DNA from: a virus
Virus record (IMG/VR): IMGVR_UViG_3300040815_000595
Coordinates: 1-25,847 of that record
DNA: 25,847 bases
Strand: one strand, 5' to 3'
Shown here: in pieces, positions 307 through 22,757 of the stretch
How the letters are laid out: the number at the start of each line of letters is the position of its first letter
Position numbering within the stretch: the first letter of the stretch is position 1
The notes under the pieces: generated by a model
What the model was told of the DNA's origin: nothing
Seen by the model: only the letters and a program-made list of their open reading frames with translations
Database searches by the model: none
Program-made: the position numbers and the translations under genes

Positions 307-1094
307 GTAAGTTTAACTTTTCACAAAGGTATATAGATAGCACATCTATTGATGATACTGATGGTATTATATTAGATGTAGTTGGTAGTGATGTACCTAA
401 AAGAGTTGATTATAATAACTTTATCACTTCAGGTAGTGGTTATTGTGGTTACTCACACACAGGCGCATTTGCAGGTAAGCCACTTTCAAATAATTATGTA
501 TGGGAGGCAGGTCAAGGTATTAATTACACTCAAACTGATGTAAATAATGATTTATACAAAGTATTATCATTAGACAATGCAGTTCATTTAGCTGTTGATA
601 ATCCTTATTGGACTACACCTGATGTTACAGAAGAGCCTAATGTAGATTTATTTAATGGATACGCTTTACCTCCAAATGTAGACAGTTTATTTGATTACAC
701 TTATGATTTTGATACTGAATATCCATCTTCTACAGGGACAGGATTCGAGGGTTCTACAGGTAGAATAAGATTGAATGACTTACAATATGGAGACCAATTA
801 AGAGTAAGGTTTGATTTTAACGTTATACCACAAATTGCAAATACAACGATAGAACCTGCTTTATGGTATAGTAATAGAGATGATAATGATAATATTACGT
901 TTACTTTCCCTTTAACAACATCTCCTGTGTTTTTTGGTGGTGGTACTGTAGGTAATACATATTTGAATAGGGTAGAAATATCTGCATGGGTAATAAGTAA
1001 TGAAGATGTAAACGCTTTAACACTACCAGCAATAAAATCAGATAATCCAATAATTATACAGCCTTTAGGTTTGTTAGTAACAGTAATTAGATAA
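303..1094 (+). CDS. Putative virion structural/decoration protein
   Basis: The product is 263 residues long, acidic, poor in Lys, and rich in Asn, Thr, Tyr and Gly, with alternating short hydrophobic stretches that suggest an all-beta fold. It has no signal peptide, membrane segment or coiled coil. The ATG overlaps the stop of the protease gene (ATGA), and the next structural gene starts two bases after its stop. It therefore sits between prohead protease and scaffold/capsid genes, where head decoration or head-fibre proteins are common. I do not recognise a named family. The structural role is inferred from position and composition; a tail or appendage component is the main alternative. Confidence 0.6.
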   Translation: MSKFNFSQRYIDSTSIDDTDGIILDVVGSDVPKRVDYNNFITSGSGYCGYSHTGAFAGKPLSNNYVWEAGQGINYTQTDVNNDLYKVLSLDNAVHLAVDNPYWTTPDVTEEPNVDLFNGYALPPNVDSLFDYTYDFDTEYPSSTGTGFEGSTGRIRLNDLQYGDQLRVRFDFNVIPQIANTTIEPALWYSNRDDNDNITFTFPLTTSPVFFGGGTVGNTYLNRVEISAWVISNEDVNALTLPAIKSDNPIIIQPLGLLVTVIR

Positions 1095-1095
1095 G

Positions 1096-2358
1096 ATGAG
1101 TATAAAGATAAAAAGAAACGAAGCAGGTAATTGTATTACGTTTGAGGGTTCATCTAATCCTGTGTATTGGAATAGCTGTTTGAGTGGGGAGATAGATTCA
1201 TCAGATAACACTTTAGTTAATGTAATAAACGATATTAGGACAGCACAAAGTGGGACGCCATTTTATGAGTTTTTTAGAATACCTTACACTGTTTTTTTAG
1301 ATGCTAACGGCAATTCATTTTCTAATAGTCAAGATTGTGTTGACTACATTAATCAAGAAGCTAATGTATTGGAAGCTACTTTAGCAGGTTTCTTAAATTT
1401 AGAAAATGTTTCAGGTACAAATGATAAAGTTGATTTAACAAGTGTAACAAGTCAAGATAAAATAGGGGGAGGTATAAAATTCACAGCAGGTAGCAACATC
1501 CAATGTGGACAGCCTGTATTTTACAATTATAGTTCCACAGGTGTAGTTACAGCAGTATCGGCAGGGACTTTACCATTGCAACACGATTACATAGGGATAG
1601 CTTTAAAAACAGTTACAACAGGTGAATCGGTAAACGTATTAACAAAAGGTTTAGTAACGGCGAGAAGAGATACAACTTACTTAACTTCATCAGAAACTGT
1701 AATCCTAAACAATATATCGAACAACACTACAAAGAACTTGACTAACTCTACAACTTTTGTTGATAGTGGAGATACAGGTGGGGATTATACAAGTAATGAA
1801 AACTACAGTATAACTTTTGATGCACAAGCAGGCTACACAGTAGATATAATATTTAATGATTTTCAGTTTGAACATTCAACATATAAAATGTACGATAGGT
1901 TAGGTATTCAAGGTTCTAATGATGGAATTAATTTTAATAATTTAAGCGTACAATGGTTGCAAAAATCAACTGCTTCTACACCTACATGGAGTGATAGCTT
2001 TTTTGGTAGCAATGCATGGAATAGCACAGGTGCTGATAATGGATATATTTTGCCTAAAGATACAGCAAGAGCAATTTTATTGTCAAGTGGTACATTTCCT
2101 GTGACAGTTAATACAAGTTACAGATATATAAGATTTTATTTTAGGTCAGATAGTAGCGTTAATGATGATGGGTGGAACATTACGTTACAGCCTAACACAC
2201 CTTATCCATCAAACGTAGAATCAGTTGCAGAGGGAACTACCTTATATTTAGATAGTACAGATTTTACAAAAGTAACTACAGACGATACAACTCAAATAGT
2301 TGTGGGTTATTGTGCATATAATGACGCTGCGAACGATAGCATATTTTTAAGAATATAA
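1096..2358 (+). CDS. Decoration/head-fibre-like protein with an internal CUB-like domain
   Basis: The product has 420 residues. Residues about 120-205 (KIGGGIKFTAGSNIQCGQPV, then an HDYIGIALKTVTTGESV stretch) resemble the small beta-barrel capsid decoration fold with a DUF2190-like pattern. The end of that fold (VESVAEGTTLYLDST through VVGYCAYND) appears only at about 373-420. Between them, about residues 205-365, lies a CUB-like segment: a FVDSGDTGGDYTSNENYSI stretch, then a hydrophobic strand and FEHSTYKMYDRLGIQGSNDG, matching the CUB pattern of a DSGG/NYS start, an F..F-E core and a D-L-x-I strand. CUB domains are frequent in secreted Bacteroidota adhesins and hydrolases. The insertion suggests a carbohydrate- or surface-binding decoration protein exposed on the virion. 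Domain calls rest on motif patterns; the role is inferred. Confidence 0.6.
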   Translation: MSIKIKRNEAGNCITFEGSSNPVYWNSCLSGEIDSSDNTLVNVINDIRTAQSGTPFYEFFRIPYTVFLDANGNSFSNSQDCVDYINQEANVLEATLAGFLNLENVSGTNDKVDLTSVTSQDKIGGGIKFTAGSNIQCGQPVFYNYSSTGVVTAVSAGTLPLQHDYIGIALKTVTTGESVNVLTKGLVTARRDTTYLTSSETVILNNISNNTTKNLTNSTTFVDSGDTGGDYTSNENYSITFDAQAGYTVDIIFNDFQFEHSTYKMYDRLGIQGSNDGINFNNLSVQWLQKSTASTPTWSDSFFGSNAWNSTGADNGYILPKDTARAILLSSGTFPVTVNTSYRYIRFYFRSDSSVNDDGWNITLQPNTPYPSNVESVAEGTTLYLDSTDFTKVTTDDTTQIVVGYCAYNDAANDSIFLRI

Positions 2359-2369
2359 ATTATAAAAAA

Positions 2370-2807
2370 ATGAGAATACAAGATTTAACGGAACAAACTA
2401 CCTTATCTGATACAGATGTATTAGTAATAAATAATGGTAGTACAAAGAAGATTACAGTAGCCAACTTAAAAAGCGAGTTAGGTGTAAATAGTAATGTATT
2501 AAGATTGAATTTATCACAATCAGGTACAGACGCACCAACATTTACGGAATTAGAGAATACAACAGGTGCTAATATCACAGCTTCAAGATTAACTACAGGT
2601 ACATATCAAATAGAAGTAGATTCAGATTTATTTACAACTGCTAATAATGTATATGTTATGATTAATGGTTATAGGTATCCTTATGCTATTTCAGCTTATA
2701 GGATATCATCAACAATAATACAAGTACAAACGTGGGTAGTATCTACTGATGGTGCTACTGATGGAGCATTAAATAGAACATCTTTAGAAGTAAGAATTTA
2801 TAATTAG
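2370..2807 (+). CDS. Small phage structural/fibre protein
   Basis: The product has 145 residues. The N-terminus MRIQDLTEQTTLSDTDVLVI, followed by a short NG turn and KKITVANLK, is a pattern seen at the start of many phage fibre and head-decoration proteins: a short I-x-DLT segment, then a D-x-D-V-L-VI strand, then a TKKI-T-x-x-L helix. A similar N-terminus is present in the protein at 8313-8801, so the window carries two such modules. The rest is beta-rich with no hydrophobic membrane stretch. The ATG lies 11 bases after the previous stop, preceded by an A-rich leader. It probably forms part of a virion surface appendage. The exact role is not readable from sequence. Confidence 0.6.
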   Translation: MRIQDLTEQTTLSDTDVLVINNGSTKKITVANLKSELGVNSNVLRLNLSQSGTDAPTFTELENTTGANITASRLTTGTYQIEVDSDLFTTANNVYVMINGYRYPYAISAYRISSTIIQVQTWVVSTDGATDGALNRTSLEVRIYN

Positions 2808-2813
2808 AAATAT

Positions 2814-3002
2814 ATGGCTAAAAAAGTAAGTCCGAAAGGAGGGAAAAGAGGTTGTTTGTGCAAAGATGGTACATACAGTTCAAAGTGTTGTGATGGAGAG
2901 TTGAAATCACAAGGAATAGGTAACATTACAGATACAGGATTAGATACTGTAACGCAATCAGAGAGTAACGGAACTCGCACAAGAACAAGGGTTTCAGGTT
3001 AG
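2814..3002 (+). CDS. Small cysteine-rich phage protein
   Basis: The product has 62 residues with a basic N-terminus (MAKKVSPKGGKRG) and a compact Cys cluster, C-x-C at residues 14 and 16 and CC near residues 25-26 (GCLCKDGTYSSKCCDG), followed by a QGIG segment and a Thr/Ser/Arg-rich tail. Four cysteines in a dozen residues suggest metal binding or a disulfide-stapled turn. It sits between a structural gene and the scaffold gene, six bases after the previous stop. I believe similar short Cys-rich proteins recur in flavobacterial phage head operons, but I cannot assign a function. It could be a minor capsid or assembly factor. Confidence 0.55.
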   Translation: MAKKVSPKGGKRGCLCKDGTYSSKCCDGELKSQGIGNITDTGLDTVTQSESNGTRTRTRVSG

Positions 3003-3040
3003 AATTTACAACAAAAATTAATAATTAATGTTATATAAGT

Positions 3041-3634
3041 ATGAAAAAAGAAGTAATAGAAGCAATTAACACATTAAAAGTTTTTTTAGGTATGGAAAAA
3101 CAAGAGGAGGTTGTTAAGTTAGCAGAGCAAATGAAGTTAGACAACGGTACTATTATCGAGGTTGAATCTTTAGAAGCAGGTGCTGCTGTAGCAATCGTAA
3201 ATGAAGATGAGCGTATCCCTTTACCGATAGGAGAGTATTCATTAGAAGATGGTAGAATCTTAGTAGTATCTGAAGATGGTGTATTATCAGAAGTAAAAGA
3301 TGCTGAAATTGAAACACCTGAACAAGAGCAAGTTGAAGAAGAAGCACCTATGATGAGTGAAGAACCTACTAAAGAAGCTAAGAAAGTAGTTGAATCTACT
3401 GTTAAAGAAACTTACTTTGAAGAGATTGAAAAGTTGAAAGCTGAAAACGAAGAGTTAAAAGCTAAGATAACTGAATTGTCAAAAGTAGAAGAAGTTAAAG
3501 AAGAGGTTGAATTATCTGAAGAGCCTAAGCCAATTAAATCTAATCCTGAAAACAAAGTAGAAAAGGAAGCTATTAGATTTGGTAAACAAGGTAAATCAAA
3601 AATATCAACAATTTTAGAAAAAGTATATAATTAA
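3041..3634 (+). CDS. Putative capsid scaffolding protein
   Basis: The product has 197 residues and is highly charged. After a short structured N-terminal part it is dominated by Glu/Lys-rich sequence from residue about 85 onward, with a coiled-coil-like heptad region around EEIEKLKAENEELKAKITEL. It ends in a short basic segment (FGKQGKSKISTILEKVYN). This composition, length and position directly upstream of the major capsid gene are the classic signature of a head scaffolding protein, which templates procapsid assembly and is removed before packaging. The C-terminal basic motif is the likely capsid-binding end. No protease domain is visible in this gene; the XkdF-like gene at the window start could supply cleavage. 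The role is inferred from context and composition. Confidence 0.72.
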   Translation: MKKEVIEAINTLKVFLGMEKQEEVVKLAEQMKLDNGTIIEVESLEAGAAVAIVNEDERIPLPIGEYSLEDGRILVVSEDGVLSEVKDAEIETPEQEQVEEEAPMMSEEPTKEAKKVVESTVKETYFEEIEKLKAENEELKAKITELSKVEEVKEEVELSEEPKPIKSNPENKVEKEAIRFGKQGKSKISTILEKVYN

Positions 3635-3655
3635 TAATTAAAATAGAAAAGAAAA

Positions 3656-4609
3656 ATGCCAACTACAACTAGTATTAGTACAACGTACTCGGGAGAACAT
3701 AGCGGAAAATGGATATCTGCTGCATTATTATCAGGTGTAACTTTATCAAATGAGTTAATCACAATTATGCCTAACGTTAAGTTTAAATCAGTAGTATCTA
3801 ACTTAGTTAGTGCTTCAGGTTTAGCTGATGCATCTTGTGATTTCACAGCTACAGGAACAGTTACTTTAACTGAAAGAATTCTTGAACCGAAGAGCCTACA
3901 AGTGAACAAGCAACTTTGTAAGGCGGACTTTAGAGACACATATCAAGCGATTGAAATGGGTTATTCTGCACACGATGTTTTACCAAAGTCTTTTGCTGAT
4001 TACTTATTAGCACACCAAGTTGACCAAGTAGCTGCTGACATCGAGCAACACATTTGGAATGGAGACGCAGGTAACTCAGGAGAGTTCAACGGATTTATGA
4101 CATTATTAACTACTGATGCTGATTTACCAGCTGCACAAGAAATCGCTGGAACTACTTTAGATTCAAGTGTAATTATCGCTGAGTTAGGAAAGGTTGCAGA
4201 TGCGATTCCATCAAGACTATATGGTAAAGAGGGATTAAGAATATATGTTTCTCAACAAGCTATGAGAGCATATGTAAGAGCGTTAGGAGGTTTCGGCGCA
4301 GCTGGATTAGGGTCTAACGGAGTTGATAGTAAAGGAACTACTTGGTATCAAGGTGGTGAATTATTTTTTGACGGAATTCCAGTAGTAGCAGCAAATGGAT
4401 TGACAGCAAACCAAATGTTAGCTACAACTAAAGAAAACTTATTCTTTGGAACTGGTTTACTTTCTGATAACAATGAGGTTAAATTGTTAGATATGTCAGA
4501 TTTAGATGGTTCTGAAAACGTAAGAATCATTATGAGAATGACAGCAGGTGTTCAATACGGTAACGTTACAGATATCGTAACTTACGGAATCACTAACGCT
4601 GCTAACTAA
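3656..4609 (+). CDS. Major capsid protein (HK97-fold type)
   Basis: The product has 317 residues, a usual length for HK97-fold capsid subunits. The N-terminus is a Ser/Thr-rich arm. A central helical segment (VDQVAADIEQHIWNGD, about residues 122-137) corresponds to the spine-helix region and the WNGD turn seen in Bacteroidota phage capsid proteins. A second region (LRIYVSQQAMRAYVRALGGF) and a GIPVVAANGL segment match the A-domain order of the family. It follows the scaffold gene by 21 bases and is followed immediately by a strong terminator at 4633-4660, consistent with a highly expressed structural gene. Codon use is more even and less AT-biased than in most neighbours, as expected for a virion major protein. 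Confidence 0.85.
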   Translation: MPTTTSISTTYSGEHSGKWISAALLSGVTLSNELITIMPNVKFKSVVSNLVSASGLADASCDFTATGTVTLTERILEPKSLQVNKQLCKADFRDTYQAIEMGYSAHDVLPKSFADYLLAHQVDQVAADIEQHIWNGDAGNSGEFNGFMTLLTTDADLPAAQEIAGTTLDSSVIIAELGKVADAIPSRLYGKEGLRIYVSQQAMRAYVRALGGFGAAGLGSNGVDSKGTTWYQGGELFFDGIPVVAANGLTANQMLATTKENLFFGTGLLSDNNEVKLLDMSDLDGSENVRIIMRMTAGVQYGNVTDIVTYGITNAAN

Positions 4610-4632
4610 TAGTAATAATAATTAATTAAAGA

Positions 4633-4660
4633 GGGGAGGTAAAGTGCCTTCCCTTTTTTT
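4633..4660 (+). terminator. Rho-independent terminator after the capsid gene
   Basis: The sequence GGGGAGG at 4633-4639 pairs with CCTTCCC at 4647-4653 (seven pairs, one G-T wobble) around a seven-base loop. Seven T residues follow directly. It lies 24 bases beyond the capsid stop and probably ends or attenuates the head transcript. Confidence 0.85.
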
Positions 4661-4683
4661 GTATAACTTTAAAAATATTTAAT

Positions 4684-5241
4684 ATGTCGTGTTTATTATC
4701 TAAAGGAAGACAGGAAGTGTGTAAAGACACAGTCGGAGGATTAAAAAATGTATACTTTGCAAACTTTGACATTGAGCCTGCTGATATTACCTATGATGGT
4801 ACGGATACAGATTTGATTACAGCAATCACAGGAATTTCTAACCTTTATAAGTTTGAGTTAAAAGGTAACTCATCTTTTATTCAAAACATCAACTCATCAA
4901 GAGAAAACGGTACTACTTTCTTTGAGCAAGTATTATCATTAGAATTGAAAAAACAAGATGTTGCTACAACAAAAGAAATTAAAATACTTTCTTATTCAAG
5001 ACCTCACGTTATCGTGGAGGGGAATGATGGTCAGTACTTCATTGCAGGTTTGTTAAGAGGAATGGATTTATCGGCAGGTACTATAGAGAGTGGTACGGCA
5101 TTAGGAGATTATAATGGATATAAAATTACCCTAACTGGCGGAGAAAAAACACCTGCTAATCACTTAGACTGTACAACAGAAGCAGGATTAGCTACATTGT
5201 TTGCTACATCAGCAGTAGATGCTACAATCGTAACTTCATAA
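4684..5241 (+). CDS. Putative major tail (tube) protein
   Basis: The product has 185 residues. Its N-terminus (MSCLLSKGRQEVCKDTVGGL, followed by VYFANFD) carries a GR-x-x-C-KD-x-VGG pattern that I associate with major tail proteins of flavobacterial siphophages and prophages. The body alternates beta strands with a SRENGTTFFEQVLSLEL segment, and a small helical YNGYKITLTGGE region lies near the end. It stands alone between two strong terminators (4633-4660 and 5264-5291), as expected for an abundant virion protein that needs its own transcript level. A tail tube gene next to the capsid gene suggests a long non-contractile tail. The tail-tube assignment is by pattern recognition and context. 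Confidence 0.65.
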   Translation: MSCLLSKGRQEVCKDTVGGLKNVYFANFDIEPADITYDGTDTDLITAITGISNLYKFELKGNSSFIQNINSSRENGTTFFEQVLSLELKKQDVATTKEIKILSYSRPHVIVEGNDGQYFIAGLLRGMDLSAGTIESGTALGDYNGYKITLTGGEKTPANHLDCTTEAGLATLFATSAVDATIVTS

Positions 5242-5263
5242 TTACTCATAATTGTTTGTTTAG

Positions 5264-5291
5264 CCCTCACTTTAGTTAGTGGGGGTTTTTT
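5264..5291 (+). terminator. Rho-independent terminator after the tail tube gene
   Basis: CCCTCAC at 5264-5270 pairs with GTGGGGG at 5279-5285 (one T-G wobble), extended by T5271-A5278, and six T residues follow at 5286-5291. It sits 23 bases after the stop of the upstream gene. Confidence 0.85.
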
Positions 5292-5330
5292 ATTTTTAAA
5301 ACAAAATTAACGTTTTAAGGTTTATTAAGT

Positions 5331-5750
5331 ATGATAGTATTAACAACATCTACAAGTTCACAAAGTTTTAATTTCATTCCACGTACAGGAACGCAACCTA
5401 CTGTTATGTTAATTACAGATGAAGAAACTAACACTACAGAAAATGTAACTATTACAAGCTATGTAGTAGATACTTACTTTGATACTATTACAGCATCATT
5501 TAGCTTAAGAGAAGGTAGATATTACACAGTAAGACTACAGAACTTTGATAGTGATGAGTATTTACAAACTGATGATTACAGCTACTTGTTAACAAGTCAA
5601 AATGATAGAATTGAAATTGATGGTTATAATGGTACAACTGAAGTTATGTATGTAGGTAAGATATTCTGTACTGACCAAACTACAGATTATTCAGTTAATA
5701 GTGGTCAATACCAACAGAAGAATACCACAAACGACTTTTTATATTTATAG
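5331..5750 (+). CDS. Hypothetical virion-associated protein
   Basis: The product has 139 residues and is predominantly beta-strand by pattern, rich in Thr, Tyr, Asp and Ser, with no membrane segment. It begins MIVLTTSTSSQSFNFIPRTG, contains a FSLREGRYYTVRL strand pair and ends with a polar Gln/Asn/Thr-rich tail. It lies between the tail-tube terminator and the portal gene, whose ATG follows three bases after its stop, so the two are probably co-expressed. The composition resembles small phage adaptor or appendage proteins, but I do not recognise a named family. A structural role is inferred only from position. Confidence 0.55.
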   Translation: MIVLTTSTSSQSFNFIPRTGTQPTVMLITDEETNTTENVTITSYVVDTYFDTITASFSLREGRYYTVRLQNFDSDEYLQTDDYSYLLTSQNDRIEIDGYNGTTEVMYVGKIFCTDQTTDYSVNSGQYQQKNTTNDFLYL

Positions 5751-5753
5751 AAT

Positions 5754-7508
5754 ATGAGTGATAATTTAAAGATATTTTCGTTAGCACAGCACGAAAGACC
5801 TGAAATAATAGAAGATAAGCGTAAAGACTGGGTAACTTGGGGCGATGAAAATAGTTATTTTGAGTATCTTATGGACAGATACAAAAACAGCACAACTAAC
5901 AACTCTATAATTAACTCTATTGTTAGGTTAATGTACGGTAAAGGATTAGGTGCAAAAGATGCTAATAGAAAGACTGAAGAGTACGCTCAGATGATGTCGA
6001 TGTTTAGCAAGGTCGATGTTAGGCAAATGTGCTACGATTTAAAACTATTTGGTAAATGTGCAATTCAAGTACACTATTCTAAGGATAGAAAAAAGGTAGC
6101 TAAAGCTTATCACATTCCAGTAAACTTATTAGCACCTGAAAAGTGTAATGAAGATGGAGATATTGAAGCATATTATTATAGTGATAATTGGCACGATGTA
6201 AGGAACTACGAGCCTAAAAGAATACCTGCATTTGGTACATCAAAAGAAAGCGTTGAAATACTTTACGTTCAACCTTATTCGGCAGGGATGAAATACTTCG
6301 CTCACGTAGATTATCAAGGTGGTGTAGATTACGCTTTATTAGAAGAAGAGATTGCAGATTACTTAATTAACGAGGTTCAGAATGGTTTCTCAGGTACAAA
6401 GGTAATTAATGTTAACAATGGTATTCCTACAGATGAACAACAGAACTTAATACAATCAAAGATAACTCAAAAGTTAACAGGTAGTAGAGGACAAAAAGTA
6501 ATAGTTTCATTTAACGACAATAAAGAAAGTGCTATTACAGTAGATGATATCCCATTAAATGATGCTCCTGAACACTACACCTATTTGAGTGAGGAGGCTA
6601 TGCGTAAGATTATGCTTTCGCATTCAGTTACAAGTCCTTTAATCTTTGGGATTGCATCAACTAATGGATTTTCGTCTAATGCTGATGAATTACAAAATAG
6701 CTTTGTGTTATTTGATAACATGGTTATTAGACCATTTCAAGAGATGTTATTAGATGCTTTTGATGAGATTTTAGCGTATAATGGTATTAAGTTAGACTTG
6801 TACTTTCAAACATTAAAACCTTTAGAATTTGGTACTGATGAGAATAGTCAGGAGGTTAAAATGTCAAGTGATTTTGATTTAGATTCATTCTTACAAGAAA
6901 TAGGCGAAGATGTACCTGATGGATATGTAGTGATTGATGAGCGTGATGTAGATGAAGTAGAAGATGAAGATGTGTTAAATGCTTATTTAGAAGAGTTACA
7001 AAAAGAACTATTAAAAGAAGAACCTACTACACTAAGTAAGATAATGAATTTCTTTACAACAGGCACAGCAAGACCAACAGCAAGAAGTTCACAGGATAAG
7101 TTAGTTAAAGATAAGTTCTTTAAAGTACGTTATAGATATACAGGTAATAAATCTCCTGAACGTGGTTTTTGTAAGGCTATGATGAACGCAGGTAAACTAT
7201 ATAGAAAAGAAGATATAGATAGACTTTCTGATGCAAATCCTAACAAAGGATTAGGAGAGTTCGGAGGGGACAATTACAGCATCTTTAAGTATAAAGGAGG
7301 TGCGAGGTGCAGACATAAATGGCAACGTGTTACTATGATGATAGACCTAAACAAAGAAGATAGCGAGTTTAAAAATATAGGTACAAGAGCAGCAGAGATT
7401 AAAGGTTTTAAAGTTACTAATCCATTTGAAGTATCTGTATATCCAAACAACCTACCTTTAAAGGGATTTAGTCCAAACAATAAGAATTTACCATCAGACG
7501 TGAAATAA
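5754..7508 (+). CDS. Portal protein with an extra C-terminal Cys/His domain
   Basis: The product has 584 residues. Residues 1 to about 380 follow the portal layout of Bacteroidota siphophages: an early WGDENSYFEYLMDRYKNSTT segment, NSIINSIVRLMYGKG, the clip/stem region, then PLIFGIASTNGFSSNADEL and the long helix NMVIRPFQEMLLDAFDEILA. The portal dodecamer forms the DNA channel at the capsid vertex and docks the terminase. Residues about 380-430 are an acidic linker. About residues 450-584 form a separate domain with RYRYTGNKSPERGFCKAMM, YRKEDIDRLS and YSIFKYKGGARCRHKWQRV, where the C-x-H-x-W pattern suggests a conserved pocket. That domain is recurrent in Bacteroidota phage head proteins as far as I recall; MuF-like head morphogenesis is a guess. 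Confidence 0.78.
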   Translation: MSDNLKIFSLAQHERPEIIEDKRKDWVTWGDENSYFEYLMDRYKNSTTNNSIINSIVRLMYGKGLGAKDANRKTEEYAQMMSMFSKVDVRQMCYDLKLFGKCAIQVHYSKDRKKVAKAYHIPVNLLAPEKCNEDGDIEAYYYSDNWHDVRNYEPKRIPAFGTSKESVEILYVQPYSAGMKYFAHVDYQGGVDYALLEEEIADYLINEVQNGFSGTKVINVNNGIPTDEQQNLIQSKITQKLTGSRGQKVIVSFNDNKESAITVDDIPLNDAPEHYTYLSEEAMRKIMLSHSVTSPLIFGIASTNGFSSNADELQNSFVLFDNMVIRPFQEMLLDAFDEILAYNGIKLDLYFQTLKPLEFGTDENSQEVKMSSDFDLDSFLQEIGEDVPDGYVVIDERDVDEVEDEDVLNAYLEELQKELLKEEPTTLSKIMNFFTTGTARPTARSSQDKLVKDKFFKVRYRYTGNKSPERGFCKAMMNAGKLYRKEDIDRLSDANPNKGLGEFGGDNYSIFKYKGGARCRHKWQRVTMMIDLNKEDSEFKNIGTRAAEIKGFKVTNPFEVSVYPNNLPLKGFSPNNKNLPSDVK

Positions 7509-14303: not shown

Positions 14304-14921
14304 ATGAATATAACAGATAAAATAACAATTACAAACGAGGACAATATGCAGTTAATGGCACGTTATCCTGATAACTATTTTGATTTGGCTATTGTAGACC
14401 CTCCTTATGGGATTAAAATGCATGGTGGAACAAGACAATATAATACTTATAAGAAAAAAGATTGGGATAATAATATACCACCAAAAGAATATTTTGAAGA
14501 ATTAATGCGTGTTTCAAAAAATCAAATTATCTGGGGAGGGAATTATTTTACAGAGTTTTTATATCCTTCAAGATGTTGGATGATTTGGGATAAAACAATT
14601 CATGGAAACACTTTTGCTGATGGTGAAATGGCTTGGACTTCTTTTGATAAGAATACAAGAATACTCGATTTAAACATTAATGCAAATCAAGGAGTAAGAT
14701 TTCACCCAACACAAAAACCAATAAAACTTTATAATTGGGTTTTAGATACTTTAGCAAAAGAAAATGACAAAATACTAGACACTCACTTAGGTTCAGGAAG
14801 TATAGCGATAGCGTGTCATGATTACGGATTTGATTTAACAGCTTGTGAGTTAGACAAAGAATACTACGACAAAGCAATAGAAAGAATAAAAAACCACGTT
14901 TCACAACAAAAATTATTTTAA
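14304..14921 (+). CDS. DNA methyltransferase (N6-adenine/N4-cytosine type)
   Basis: The product has 205 residues. The catalytic motif DPPY is at 32-35 (LAIVDPPYGIKMHGG), the SAM-binding motif I appears later as LDTHLGSGS at 158-166, and HPTQKP at 134-139 is the usual motif preceding it. The order catalytic motif first, SAM motif second defines the beta class of amino-methyltransferases. The protein is short and has no large target-recognition domain, so recognition of a short site is expected. It would modify phage DNA to evade host restriction, or mark DNA for other phage functions. No cognate endonuclease is visible nearby, so it appears to be an orphan enzyme. Confidence 0.9.
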   Translation: MNITDKITITNEDNMQLMARYPDNYFDLAIVDPPYGIKMHGGTRQYNTYKKKDWDNNIPPKEYFEELMRVSKNQIIWGGNYFTEFLYPSRCWMIWDKTIHGNTFADGEMAWTSFDKNTRILDLNINANQGVRFHPTQKPIKLYNWVLDTLAKENDKILDTHLGSGSIAIACHDYGFDLTACELDKEYYDKAIERIKNHVSQQKLF

Positions 14922-21141: not shown

Positions 21142-21471
21142 ATGGAAGTAACAGGTAGAATTAAAATGATTAATCCCACTCAAGTAGTAAGTGAGAAGTT
21201 TAGTAAAAGAGAGTTTGTAGTAACAACAAATGAAACATACCCTCAAGATTTAATGATGCAAATTACACAAGATAAATGTAGTTTATTAGACATCTTTAAA
21301 GTAGGTGAGAATGTAACTGTATCTATTAATTTAAGAGGTAGAGAATGGGTTAATCCACAAGGCGAATCTAAGTATTTTAATACTATTGAAGCATGGAAGA
21401 TAAGTAAATTAGAATCTTCAGGAACTGTTGCAAATTCAGAAACTGTAGAAAACGATAATTTGCCTTTCTGA
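21142..21471 (+). CDS. DUF3127 OB-fold, SSB-like protein
   Basis: The product has 109 residues. The pattern EVTGRIKMINPTQVVSEKFS, KREFVVTTNETYPQDLMMQI, then VGENVTVSINLRGREWVNPQ and YFNTIEAWKI is that of the DUF3127 family, which is a compact OB-fold found in Bacteroidota and their phages. The C-terminus is a flexible linker ending in an acidic tip with Phe (ENDNLPF), like the protein-docking tail of bacterial SSB. It should coat single-stranded DNA and cooperate with the ERF protein. The stop is followed by a terminator at 21483-21542, ending the recombination unit. Confidence 0.85.
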   Translation: MEVTGRIKMINPTQVVSEKFSKREFVVTTNETYPQDLMMQITQDKCSLLDIFKVGENVTVSINLRGREWVNPQGESKYFNTIEAWKISKLESSGTVANSETVENDNLPF

Positions 21472-21482
21472 TATTAACTAAG

Positions 21483-21542
21483 CACCCTACTAAGAATAAA
21501 TATTAACATTTATTAAACGCTTAAACGGTAGGGTGTTTTTTT
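21483..21542 (+). terminator. Long-loop terminator after the recombination unit
   Basis: CACCCTAC at 21483-21490 pairs perfectly with GTAGGGTG at 21528-21535, followed by seven T residues. The 37-base loop contains its own hairpin (AATAAAT 21495-21501 with ATTTATT 21508-21514). The T run touches the first attC-like site at 21541. Confidence 0.85.
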
Positions 21543-21590
21543 ATAACGAGGAATAAACAACGTTTTAATGCTGTTTATATGTTGTTAGGT
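21541..21590 (+). repeat. attC-like recombination site 1
   Basis: The site has R'' TTATAAC (21541-21547), a five-base spacer, L'' ATAAACA (21553-21559), a 12-base loop, L' TGTTTAT (21572-21578), a five-base spacer and R' GTTAGGT (21584-21590). L'' and L' are perfectly complementary, and spacers of equal length give the unpaired central spacer typical of integron attC sites. R' fits the consensus GTTRRRY. Positions 21545-21573 match site 2 at 27 of 29 bases. The structure and the repeat are read directly; recombination activity is inferred. Confidence 0.7.
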
Positions 21591-22290
21591 ATAGCGATTA
21601 GTTAATGATAAATTAATAGAATGAGGAAAATAATACTGCATTTGTGTGCTGATATAGGTAGCGACAGTAGATACTACCAGTTAGACAATAAATACGAGGT
21701 TATAAAAATAGGAATAGAAATAGGTGTTGAAAATTATACACCTCCTAAAAATGTTTACGGTGTAATTGCTAACCCTGTCTGCACAGAATTTAGTAACATA
21801 CAAGGAAGAAGCGAAGATAAAAAAGACTATGAAAAAGGGATGTATTTAGTTAATCATTGCCTGAGAATAATAAAAGAATGTAAGCCTCATTTTTGGACAA
21901 TAGAAAACCCTGCAAAAGGCGATTTGCATAAGTTTTTAGGTAAACCAAAGTTAAAGTACCAACCTTGGCAATATGGTAGCCCTTGGACAAAAGAAACGGC
22001 TTTATGGGGTGAGTTCAATACACCTAATAAGATGTTTGATAAATGGGAAGATGTGCCTAAAAATGAAAAGCTATACATAAGACCAACAAGAAAAAAACCA
22101 TCATTAGCAATACTGCATAAATCAAGCAAAGAACTTATACCTGAAATGCAATGGGCAAAGCATTTGATTAATGATGATATGAGTATAAGAAGTTGGTGCA
22201 GTCAAGGATTTGCTAAAGCATTTTATGAAGCGAATAAGTAAGTTACACCTAACGAGAAATAAACAACGTTTTAATGTTGGTTATGGAGTG
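21585..22290 (+). mobile_element. Putative integron-type gene cassette (706 bp)
   Basis: If exchange occurs between G and TT of each R' box, the segment 21585-22290 is one cassette: a 36-base lead, one gene (21621-22241), and an attC-like site beginning five bases after the stop. That layout is standard for gene cassettes. The R'' of site 2 (ACCTAAC) is the exact complement of the R' of site 1 (GTTAGGT), as expected because both belong to the same circular cassette. The R'' of site 1 (TTATAAC) matches the R' of site 2 (GTTATTA) at six of seven pairs, consistent with a target site split by insertion. No integron integrase is visible in the window. Confidence 0.6.
21621..22241 (+). CDS. Cytosine-5 DNA methyltransferase-like protein on a putative cassette
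   Basis: The product has 206 residues. The pattern follows a compact phage cytosine methylase: an N-terminal nucleotide-binding segment (IILHLCADIGSDSRYY), VYGVIANPVCTEFS (51-58, equivalent of the PC motif with candidate nucleophile C54), FWTIENPAKG (ENP at 95-97, equivalent of ENV), and QYGSPWTKETALWG (about 117-130). Short length implies no large target-recognition domain. The PPC motif is altered to NPVC and the usual FxGxG is DIGSD, so activity is uncertain. It would methylate cytosine in DNA to protect phage DNA. The gene alone lies between two attC-like sites and has no good promoter of its own. Confidence 0.75.
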   Translation: MRKIILHLCADIGSDSRYYQLDNKYEVIKIGIEIGVENYTPPKNVYGVIANPVCTEFSNIQGRSEDKKDYEKGMYLVNHCLRIIKECKPHFWTIENPAKGDLHKFLGKPKLKYQPWQYGSPWTKETALWGEFNTPNKMFDKWEDVPKNEKLYIRPTRKKPSLAILHKSSKELIPEMQWAKHLINDDMSIRSWCSQGFAKAFYEANK

Positions 22291-22296
22291 TTATTA
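22247..22296 (+). repeat. attC-like recombination site 2
   Basis: R'' ACCTAAC (22247-22253, fits RYYYAAC), five-base spacer, L'' ATAAACA (22259-22265), 12-base loop, L' TGGTTAT (22278-22284, one mismatch with L''), five-base spacer and R' GTTATTA (22290-22296). Every element has the same length as in site 1. It starts five bases after the methylase stop. Confidence 0.7.
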
Positions 22297-22321
22297 ATTT
22301 AAAAAGAAATGACGTATATAA

Positions 22322-22356
22322 CCATCATTGTATAGTATAATGTGCAGTAATGATGG
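22322..22356 (+). repeat. Inverted repeat downstream of the cassette
   Basis: CCATCATT at 22322-22329 pairs perfectly with AATGATGG at 22349-22356 across 19 bases. No T run follows, so it is not a terminator. It could be an operator or a leader hairpin for the gene at 22383. Confidence 0.6.
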
Positions 22357-22382
22357 ATAATACCAACAGTAAATTAAATAAA

Positions 22383-22757
22383 ATGAAAATAGGAGATAAC
22401 ATATTAATTACAGAATCAGCTTACGGTAGTGAACTACTAACTGTAGGTAAAGAATACGAGGTGTTAGATTTCGATTTTGATGGTGAACCTGTAGTAACTT
22501 TAGATGATGGTCAAAAGATAGGGCTTTGTTTAAATCAAATAGAGTACAAACTAAAACTAACAGAAACTAAACCTAAGCAATATCAAATAGGTATAGATAC
22601 CTTTCAAAGAGCAGAAGCTAATATGACTAAAGATGAAATACTTGCTTGTGTACGTTTCAACATAGACAAATATAACTGGAGGAAAAAAGGTCAAGACAAA
22701 GAAGATTTTGAAAAGATTATTAAATATGCTGAATGGGCATTAAAACAAATGAAATGA
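22383..22757 (+). CDS. DUF3310-like protein with N-terminal beta domain
   Basis: The product has 124 residues from ATG 22383, which has the A-rich leader usual here (AAATTAAATAAA-ATG). An earlier in-frame ATG at 22350 lies within an inverted repeat and seems less likely. Residues 1 to about 55 form a small beta domain (MKIGDNILITESAYGSELLT). The C-terminal half (YQIGIDTFQRAEANMTKDEI, then CVRFNIDKYNWRKKGQDKED and a KIIKYAEWAL helix) resembles the DUF3310/SaV-like family: N-x-x-KY-x-x-R/W-x-K, then a D-x-x-K-I helix. The family is common in phages and has been linked to nucleotide kinase-like annotations without firm biochemistry. Its stop overlaps the next ATG. Confidence 0.65.
   Translation: MKIGDNILITESAYGSELLTVGKEYEVLDFDFDGEPVVTLDDGQKIGLCLNQIEYKLKLTETKPKQYQIGIDTFQRAEANMTKDEILACVRFNIDKYNWRKKGQDKEDFEKIIKYAEWALKQMK

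Follow-up and report, generated by a model that had tools for sequence, protein, structure and literature searches.

How does a single DNA methyltransferase gene of a tailed phage come to lie between two sites that resemble the attC sites of integron gene cassettes? The window, by which we mean the whole stretch of DNA analysed here, is an IMG/VR record of 25,847 bases and is probably a fragment. Among cultured phages, the Nonlabens phages P12024L/S have the terminase closest to its own (55% identity), from which we infer that the host is probably a marine flavobacterium. The methylase is likely to be an integron-style cassette in a tailed marine flavobacterial phage, exchanged at the boxes of its sites by a tyrosine recombinase that the host supplies; recombination itself is untested. 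The features of the locus are listed below, with scores from R1, a covariance model described further on.

21142..21471, plus strand: left neighbour, single-strand DNA-binding protein (DUF3127)
21483..21542, plus strand: terminator-like hairpin and T-run at the left edge of the insertion locus, recognized from sequence and conserved in relatives with and without the cassette
21541..21590, plus strand: site 1, layout from sequence, R1 47.3 bits, E 6e-8; boxes R'' TTATAAC 21541–21547, L'' ATAAACA 21553–21559, loop 21560–21571, L' TGTTTAT 21572–21578, R' GTTAGGT 21584–21590
21585..22253, plus strand: exchangeable body between the facing boxes (TTAGGT ... ACCTAAC), based on a 91% identical body in contig L083 and on facing-box complementarity
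21621..22241, plus strand: cassette gene, DNA methyltransferase of 206 aa, PHROG 757, with homologues in other phages
22247..22296, plus strand: site 2, probable resident docking site, R1 31.9 bits, E 9e-5; boxes R'' ACCTAAC 22247–22253, L'' 22259–22265, loop 22266–22277, L' 22278–22284, R' GTTATTA 22290–22296
22350..22757, plus strand: right neighbour, DUF3310-like gene, flanking context

Each site is 50 nt long and has the layout 7-5-7-12-7-5-7. Site 1 reads TTATAAC GAGGA ATAAACA ACGTTTTAATGC TGTTTAT ATGTT GTTAGGT, and site 2 reads ACCTAAC GAGAA ATAAACA ACGTTTTAATGT TGGTTAT GGAGT GTTATTA. Together they form a 44-nt direct repeat with 84% identity, 706 nt apart, the core of which occurs twice in the window and not once in 100 shuffles. 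Within each site the outer boxes pair at 4 of 7 nt, and the inner arms of site 2 carry one mismatch. Across the gene, R' of site 1 and R'' of site 2 pair at all 7 nt, and these two facing boxes are the only ones to fit GTTRRRY/RYYYAAC; TTATAAC and GTTATTA, on the outside, depart from it. The ATG of the cassette gene (21621) lies 36 nt past the proposed cut, and its stop codon ends 5 nt ahead of ACCTAAC. The first-pass annotation, which had placed two attC-like sites of this spacing and architecture here, held to the base, as did its assignment of GTTAGGT and ACCTAAC to R' and R'' and its positions for the start and stop of the gene. Its description of the sites as identical in architecture held for the layout and is refined by the partial pairing of the outer boxes and the mismatch in site 2. 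Its naming of the gene as a methylase held through PHROG 757 (E 3e-24); a Pfam search with the product gave no match, and its resemblance to a cytosine methyltransferase of known structure is weak and non-significant.

Thermodynamic folding of the AT-rich window sites, taken singly, was no better than that of shuffled sequence (z of −0.9, −1.5, −1.1 and +0.4), and the evidence for site structure is for that reason comparative. A further hairpin, CCATCATT...AATGATGG, lies at 22318–22354, directly to the right of site 2 and before the next gene. Elsewhere in the window a separate N6/N4 DNA methylase gene (14304–14921) stands outside the cassette, with no such sites nearby.

Relatives of the insertion locus were found through the neighbouring sigma-like gene. 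In six of them (L004, L007, L009, L010, L013 and L014) the terminator is followed directly by the next phage gene, and it is the entire site that is absent, not merely the gene. In others (L005/L108, L006, L011, L012/L075 and L098) unrelated genes come next, together with a right-hand site of common core, at least five other genes occupying this spot in related phages. The core of site 2 and its right flank are common to L012, L075, L098 and L108, and a form damaged by deletion is present in L005, L006 and L011. The same methylase body also occurs in other phages between site cores that differ on both sides, with the facing boxes intact: in L083 a body of 91% DNA identity is bounded by GTTAGGTGTA...TACACCTAAC, and in L084 by GTTATATG...GCATATAAC. 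In these locus comparisons the ends of exchange coincide with the boxes. Between the terminator and the cassette gene, L005, L012 and L108 contain repeated TATACCCGACAAGGTATAAT elements, possibly the remains of another site or a different repeat.

In 52 consecutive site pairs, viral and chromosomal, complementarity of the facing boxes extends for a mean run of 3.56 nt past GTT/AAC, and often over the full 7 or more, compared with 1.33 for boxes within a site and 1.37 (sd 0.14) for shuffled pairs, none of 5,000 of which reached as high. Such a footprint is expected if a gene and two boxes are the unit of exchange, as in integrons, and is not expected of terminators or chance repeats. Facing boxes of the form GTTRRRY/RYYYAAC that are complementary across a gene, and content that varies at a fixed locus with empty sites, are both properties of cassettes, and both are met here. 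Complementarity of cassette ends, presence or absence, and variation of content at one locus are thereby shown by sequence comparison. The case that would have refuted the first-pass annotation, the same sites around unvarying content, was not borne out, as content differs among related phages. Its integron-type cassette in a flavobacterial phage is supported by that variation, by the complementary ends and by the structured site family described next; strictly, though, an integron cassette is one moved by an IntI that carries the IntI-specific domain, and this has not been shown.

The site family was sought in viral contigs and in genomes with a pattern of fixed TAACG, loop CGTTTTAATG and GTTA, the arms being left free, and is present in many viral contigs and Bacteroidota genomes. 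At least 118 stretches of viral contigs matched, against 14 for a reversed-pattern control; 'viral' here means IMG/VR contigs, some of which may contain host DNA. The same pattern occurs in many genomes of Flavobacteriales, Cytophagales, Saprospiraceae and other Bacteroidota. The free arms of the matches pair and covary. In 88 diverse sites, picked regardless of pairing, the covariation score was 0.297, against 0.152 (sd 0.010) for shuffled sets and 0.065–0.167 for slid versions, so that a covarying site structure is shown by comparison; the covarying arms go with a fixed loop, and no T-run follows the stem. The three variable outer positions are mostly unpaired within a site (51–54 of the 88 sequences). 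One viral-classed contig of 71 kb, L127 (IMGVR_UViG_3300033388_003553), holds ten or more consecutive sites without a recombinase match and could be phage DNA with a long array or else a fragment of a host chromosome.

R1 was built from these 88 sites with the window sites excluded, and its next best match in the window after sites 1 and 2 scored only 11.5 bits (E 1.5). The model detects only sites with loop CGTTTTAATG, whereas other loops exist (in L084 and in Polaribacter phage P12002L), and its E-values are rough; site scoring relied on R1 and not on the published attC models of IntegronFinder and HattCI. Layout, covariation and R1 together satisfy what is asked of an integron cassette site, an imperfect inverted repeat R''-L''-loop-L'-R' with paired inner arms. 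Other searches were less informative: an exact-core search of viral contigs gave 0 matches, the criterion being too strict; an Rfam search returned nothing relevant; and BLAST of a single site against phages gave weak matches only, yet pointed to Tenacibaculum phage JQ.

Cassettes borne by phages have been published before, so a cassette in a phage is in itself no novelty. Phage attC clusters without an integrase (CALINs) were described by Qi et al. 2023 (PMC9892861), with five methyltransferases among their cassettes; of six phage attC sites assayed there, five recombined with attI1, among them one of the two taken from phage P12002L. The window resembles these CALINs, and P12002L in particular, in that attC-like sites flank DNA methyltransferase genes in a marine flavobacterial phage that has no integrase. 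R1 finds sites of the same family in the cultured phages P12002L and JQ; which of the P12002L sites were assayed could not be located from the text of the paper. The shared loop family, its spread across the Bacteroidota, the opposite gene polarity and the host recombinase do not figure in that study. In phage JQ (L429, record 1069-7101, about 1085–3275) several consecutive cassettes have complementary ends, one encoding a methyltransferase, and no description of JQ as an integron-type array was found in the literature searched. The stretch examined in Nonlabens phages P12024L/S contained no convincing site.

Phage and host cassettes differ in polarity and cargo. Of 72 viral cases, 68 have the gene to the right of a site in the same sense as loop CGTTTTAATG, and in 52 of 55 chromosomal cases that gene has the opposite sense (Fisher p 5e-27; 2e-19 for the left side). 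About half of the phage cassettes encode DNA-modification enzymes: among 54 viral cassette proteins Pfam identified 14 N6/N4 methylases, 6 C5, 4 Mom, 2 D12 and 1 MT-A70, and PHROGs adds further methyltransferases, including that of the window. None of those families was among the 25 covered, out of 48, that 51 chromosomal cassette proteins matched, in which a secretion-signal domain leads. As cargo and polarity both differ, the phage pool is not a simple sample of the host arrays seen. In this phage group the gene left of the right-hand core varies and the core itself does not, which makes the TAAC side of each site the more likely point of exchange; we infer that this agrees with host polarity and that phage genes are inverted to it, so that the polarity first assumed for the sites is probably the reverse of the true one. 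It remains possible that uniform cores within one cassette pool mimic a constant right-hand core.

No recombinase match was found by a PF00589 search of the 25.8-kb window record, which is probably a fragment, and a TIGR02249 search of two relatives of the window phage (G057 and G058) also gave none; the window record does not meet the definition of a complete integron, with intI in the same genome. The integron-integrase model TIGR02249 was searched in 49 site-bearing and 14 control genomes. Some match was obtained in all 49 and all 14, presumably through Xer-type proteins, and a match above the cut-off in only one of the 49, a MAG (G042). Most site-bearing genomes encode a tyrosine recombinase, usually of 280–500 aa, that matches the model over about 1–180 and 240–315 and skips the middle. 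Such two-block matches could have reflected an insertion, a reading rejected on the sequences and on alignment to IntI4 (PDB 2a3v), which show a missing segment: IntI4 residues 182–246 face 22 residues in the array-linked recombinases, and TIGR02249 positions of about 181–239 are missing. IntI4 residues 182–246 include the IntI-specific segment. The array-linked recombinases do not, then, possess the IntI-specific domain (patch-less, below); they end in an IntI-like SPLD motif, and the three tested pass the NF040815 cut-off (225–247 bits versus 220). Many, among L330–L348, have N-terminal extensions of 100–300 aa, some of which repeat a motif of about KxIPGRxWS...CWxVPYT.

R1 was scanned over up to 20 kb around 40 patch-less recombinases (548 kb) and, in those genomes, around 20 genes of Xer type (392 kb), the genomes having been sampled for having sites and the sites not for recombinase proximity. 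There were 29 matches near the former and none near the latter. By our count from the tables, 28 of the 29 sites lie on the 3' side of the recombinase and on the opposite strand (13 of 14 loci); the recombinase and the host cassettes share one reading direction. At 8 of 13 loci a box 49–190 nt past the recombinase stop, often behind an inverted repeat TAAACG...GTTTA, matches the box of the first detected site over 8–10 nt, with a mean match of 8.4 compared with 6.8 for shuffled sequence (0 of 2,000). This box has the look expected of an attI, an inference from sequence whose function is untested. Many array-linked recombinase genes lie less than 5 kb from a contig end, on the 3' side in about 22 cases versus 4 (counted from tables), as would be expected if repeat arrays break assemblies. 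A tyrosine recombinase gene adjoining a cassette array is one feature asked of an integron platform in Bacteroidota hosts, and sequence comparison shows both that the site family occurs in host arrays and that these arrays are attached to a recombinase.

With chromosomal integrons (class 1, Vibrio and archaeal, PMC9668308) the host arrays share cassettes of one gene each, GTT boxes, ends that complement each other, inner arms that covary and a recombinase accompanied by an attI-like start. They are unlike them in that the recombinase has no IntI-specific domain and shares its reading direction with the cassettes. IntegronFinder identifies IntI through that domain (PMC9668308), and IntegronFinder 2.0 reported very few integrons in Bacteroidetes (PMC9024848). 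Passing its cut-off, the array-linked recombinases are akin to NF040815 (XerA/integron-integrase); they may also belong to the integron-like subgroup of simple tyrosine recombinases of Smyshlyaev et al. (PMC8138268), whose conservation of the catalytic-domain insertion is incomplete, an inferred possibility. They differ from descriptions of both groups in that the relevant passages credit no cassette arrays to patch-less members, and they are set apart by the IntI-like SPLD end and, often, N-terminal extensions. The phylum-wide site family, its link to a patch-less recombinase and the difference in polarity were not found in the literature searched, which covered few subscription journals and no bioRxiv preprints.

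In the preferred explanation each bracketing site would be a folded recombination site, the outer boxes serving as the points of exchange. A host recombinase acting in trans would insert and excise 'box-gene-box' units beside a site core; during infection, one of the array-linked type would join the boxes of a cassette to the docking site of the phage. Small genes, mostly for DNA modification, would in this way be swapped among phages at fixed places, and the methylase would modify phage DNA and so blunt host restriction. That the XerA/IntI-like recombinase without the IntI-specific domain acts on phage sites, and that it does so on a folded single strand, are inferences, as is the protection from restriction, which has not been observed for the window phage. 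Several points count against the explanation. No recombination has been observed, folding of individual sites is weak, and neither outer box of the window fits the canonical consensus. The array-linked recombinase is without a domain that IntI is known to require. A cassette should bring one core along with it, yet L083 differs from the window in both cores. Against a simple origin from host arrays, the sense of phage genes relative to the loop is the reverse of that in host cassettes.

Of the alternatives, the one that survives best, though it is unlikely, is that these are ordinary attC sites moved in some hosts by a canonical IntI with the IntI-specific domain, the patch-less recombinase being incidental. 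It is favoured by the recombination of one P12002L site with IntI1 (PMC9892861) and by the IntI over the TIGR02249 cut-off in genome G042. Against it, such an IntI was found in only 1 of 49 site-bearing genomes, a MAG, and the sites cluster beside patch-less recombinases, on a fixed side and strand and with an attI-like box. Homologous recombination between phages, the hairpins being conserved terminators or spacers with cargo beside them by chance, is very unlikely. The locus does follow a terminator, its flanks are conserved, phages are generally mosaic and single sites fold weakly, but the facing boxes are complementary across unrelated genes at viral and chromosomal loci, exchange ends at the boxes, the arms covary around a fixed loop with no T-run after the stem, and host arrays are tied to a recombinase. 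It is likewise very unlikely that the sites are transposable-element ends (MITE-like or IS200/IS605-type hairpins) carrying a gene. Hairpins do surround a single gene and similar ones occur in many genomes, but the sites are in direct and not inverted order, many stand alone or belong to long arrays of varied genes, no transposase was encountered, and complementary boxes are foreign to such ends. A chance repeat without function, suggested by the AT-rich sequence and unremarkable isolated folding energies, is all but excluded by the absence of matches in 100 shuffles, the covariation, the facing-box complementarity and the at least 118 viral pattern matches versus 14 reversed. Chance, terminators and transposon ends were thus rejected on covariation, box complementarity and site order.

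The reading we prefer, a phage cassette exchanged by a host recombinase, can be extended. By a narrow margin, we favour a bolder version in which the Bacteroidota have a widespread integron kind of their own, with XerA/IntI-like recombinases without the IntI-specific domain, and phages use that machinery for an inverted cassette pool rich in DNA-modification genes. Lacking that domain, the recombinase would have let this integron kind be missed by IntI-based searches. Should these sites prove to be worked by the host recombinase, the IntI-specific domain on which present tools rely would not be needed for cassette exchange, and the cassette systems of a whole phylum would be under-counted. Phages, for their part, would trade DNA-modification genes singly at fixed docking sites, and how virulent phages renew their protection against restriction would become testable.
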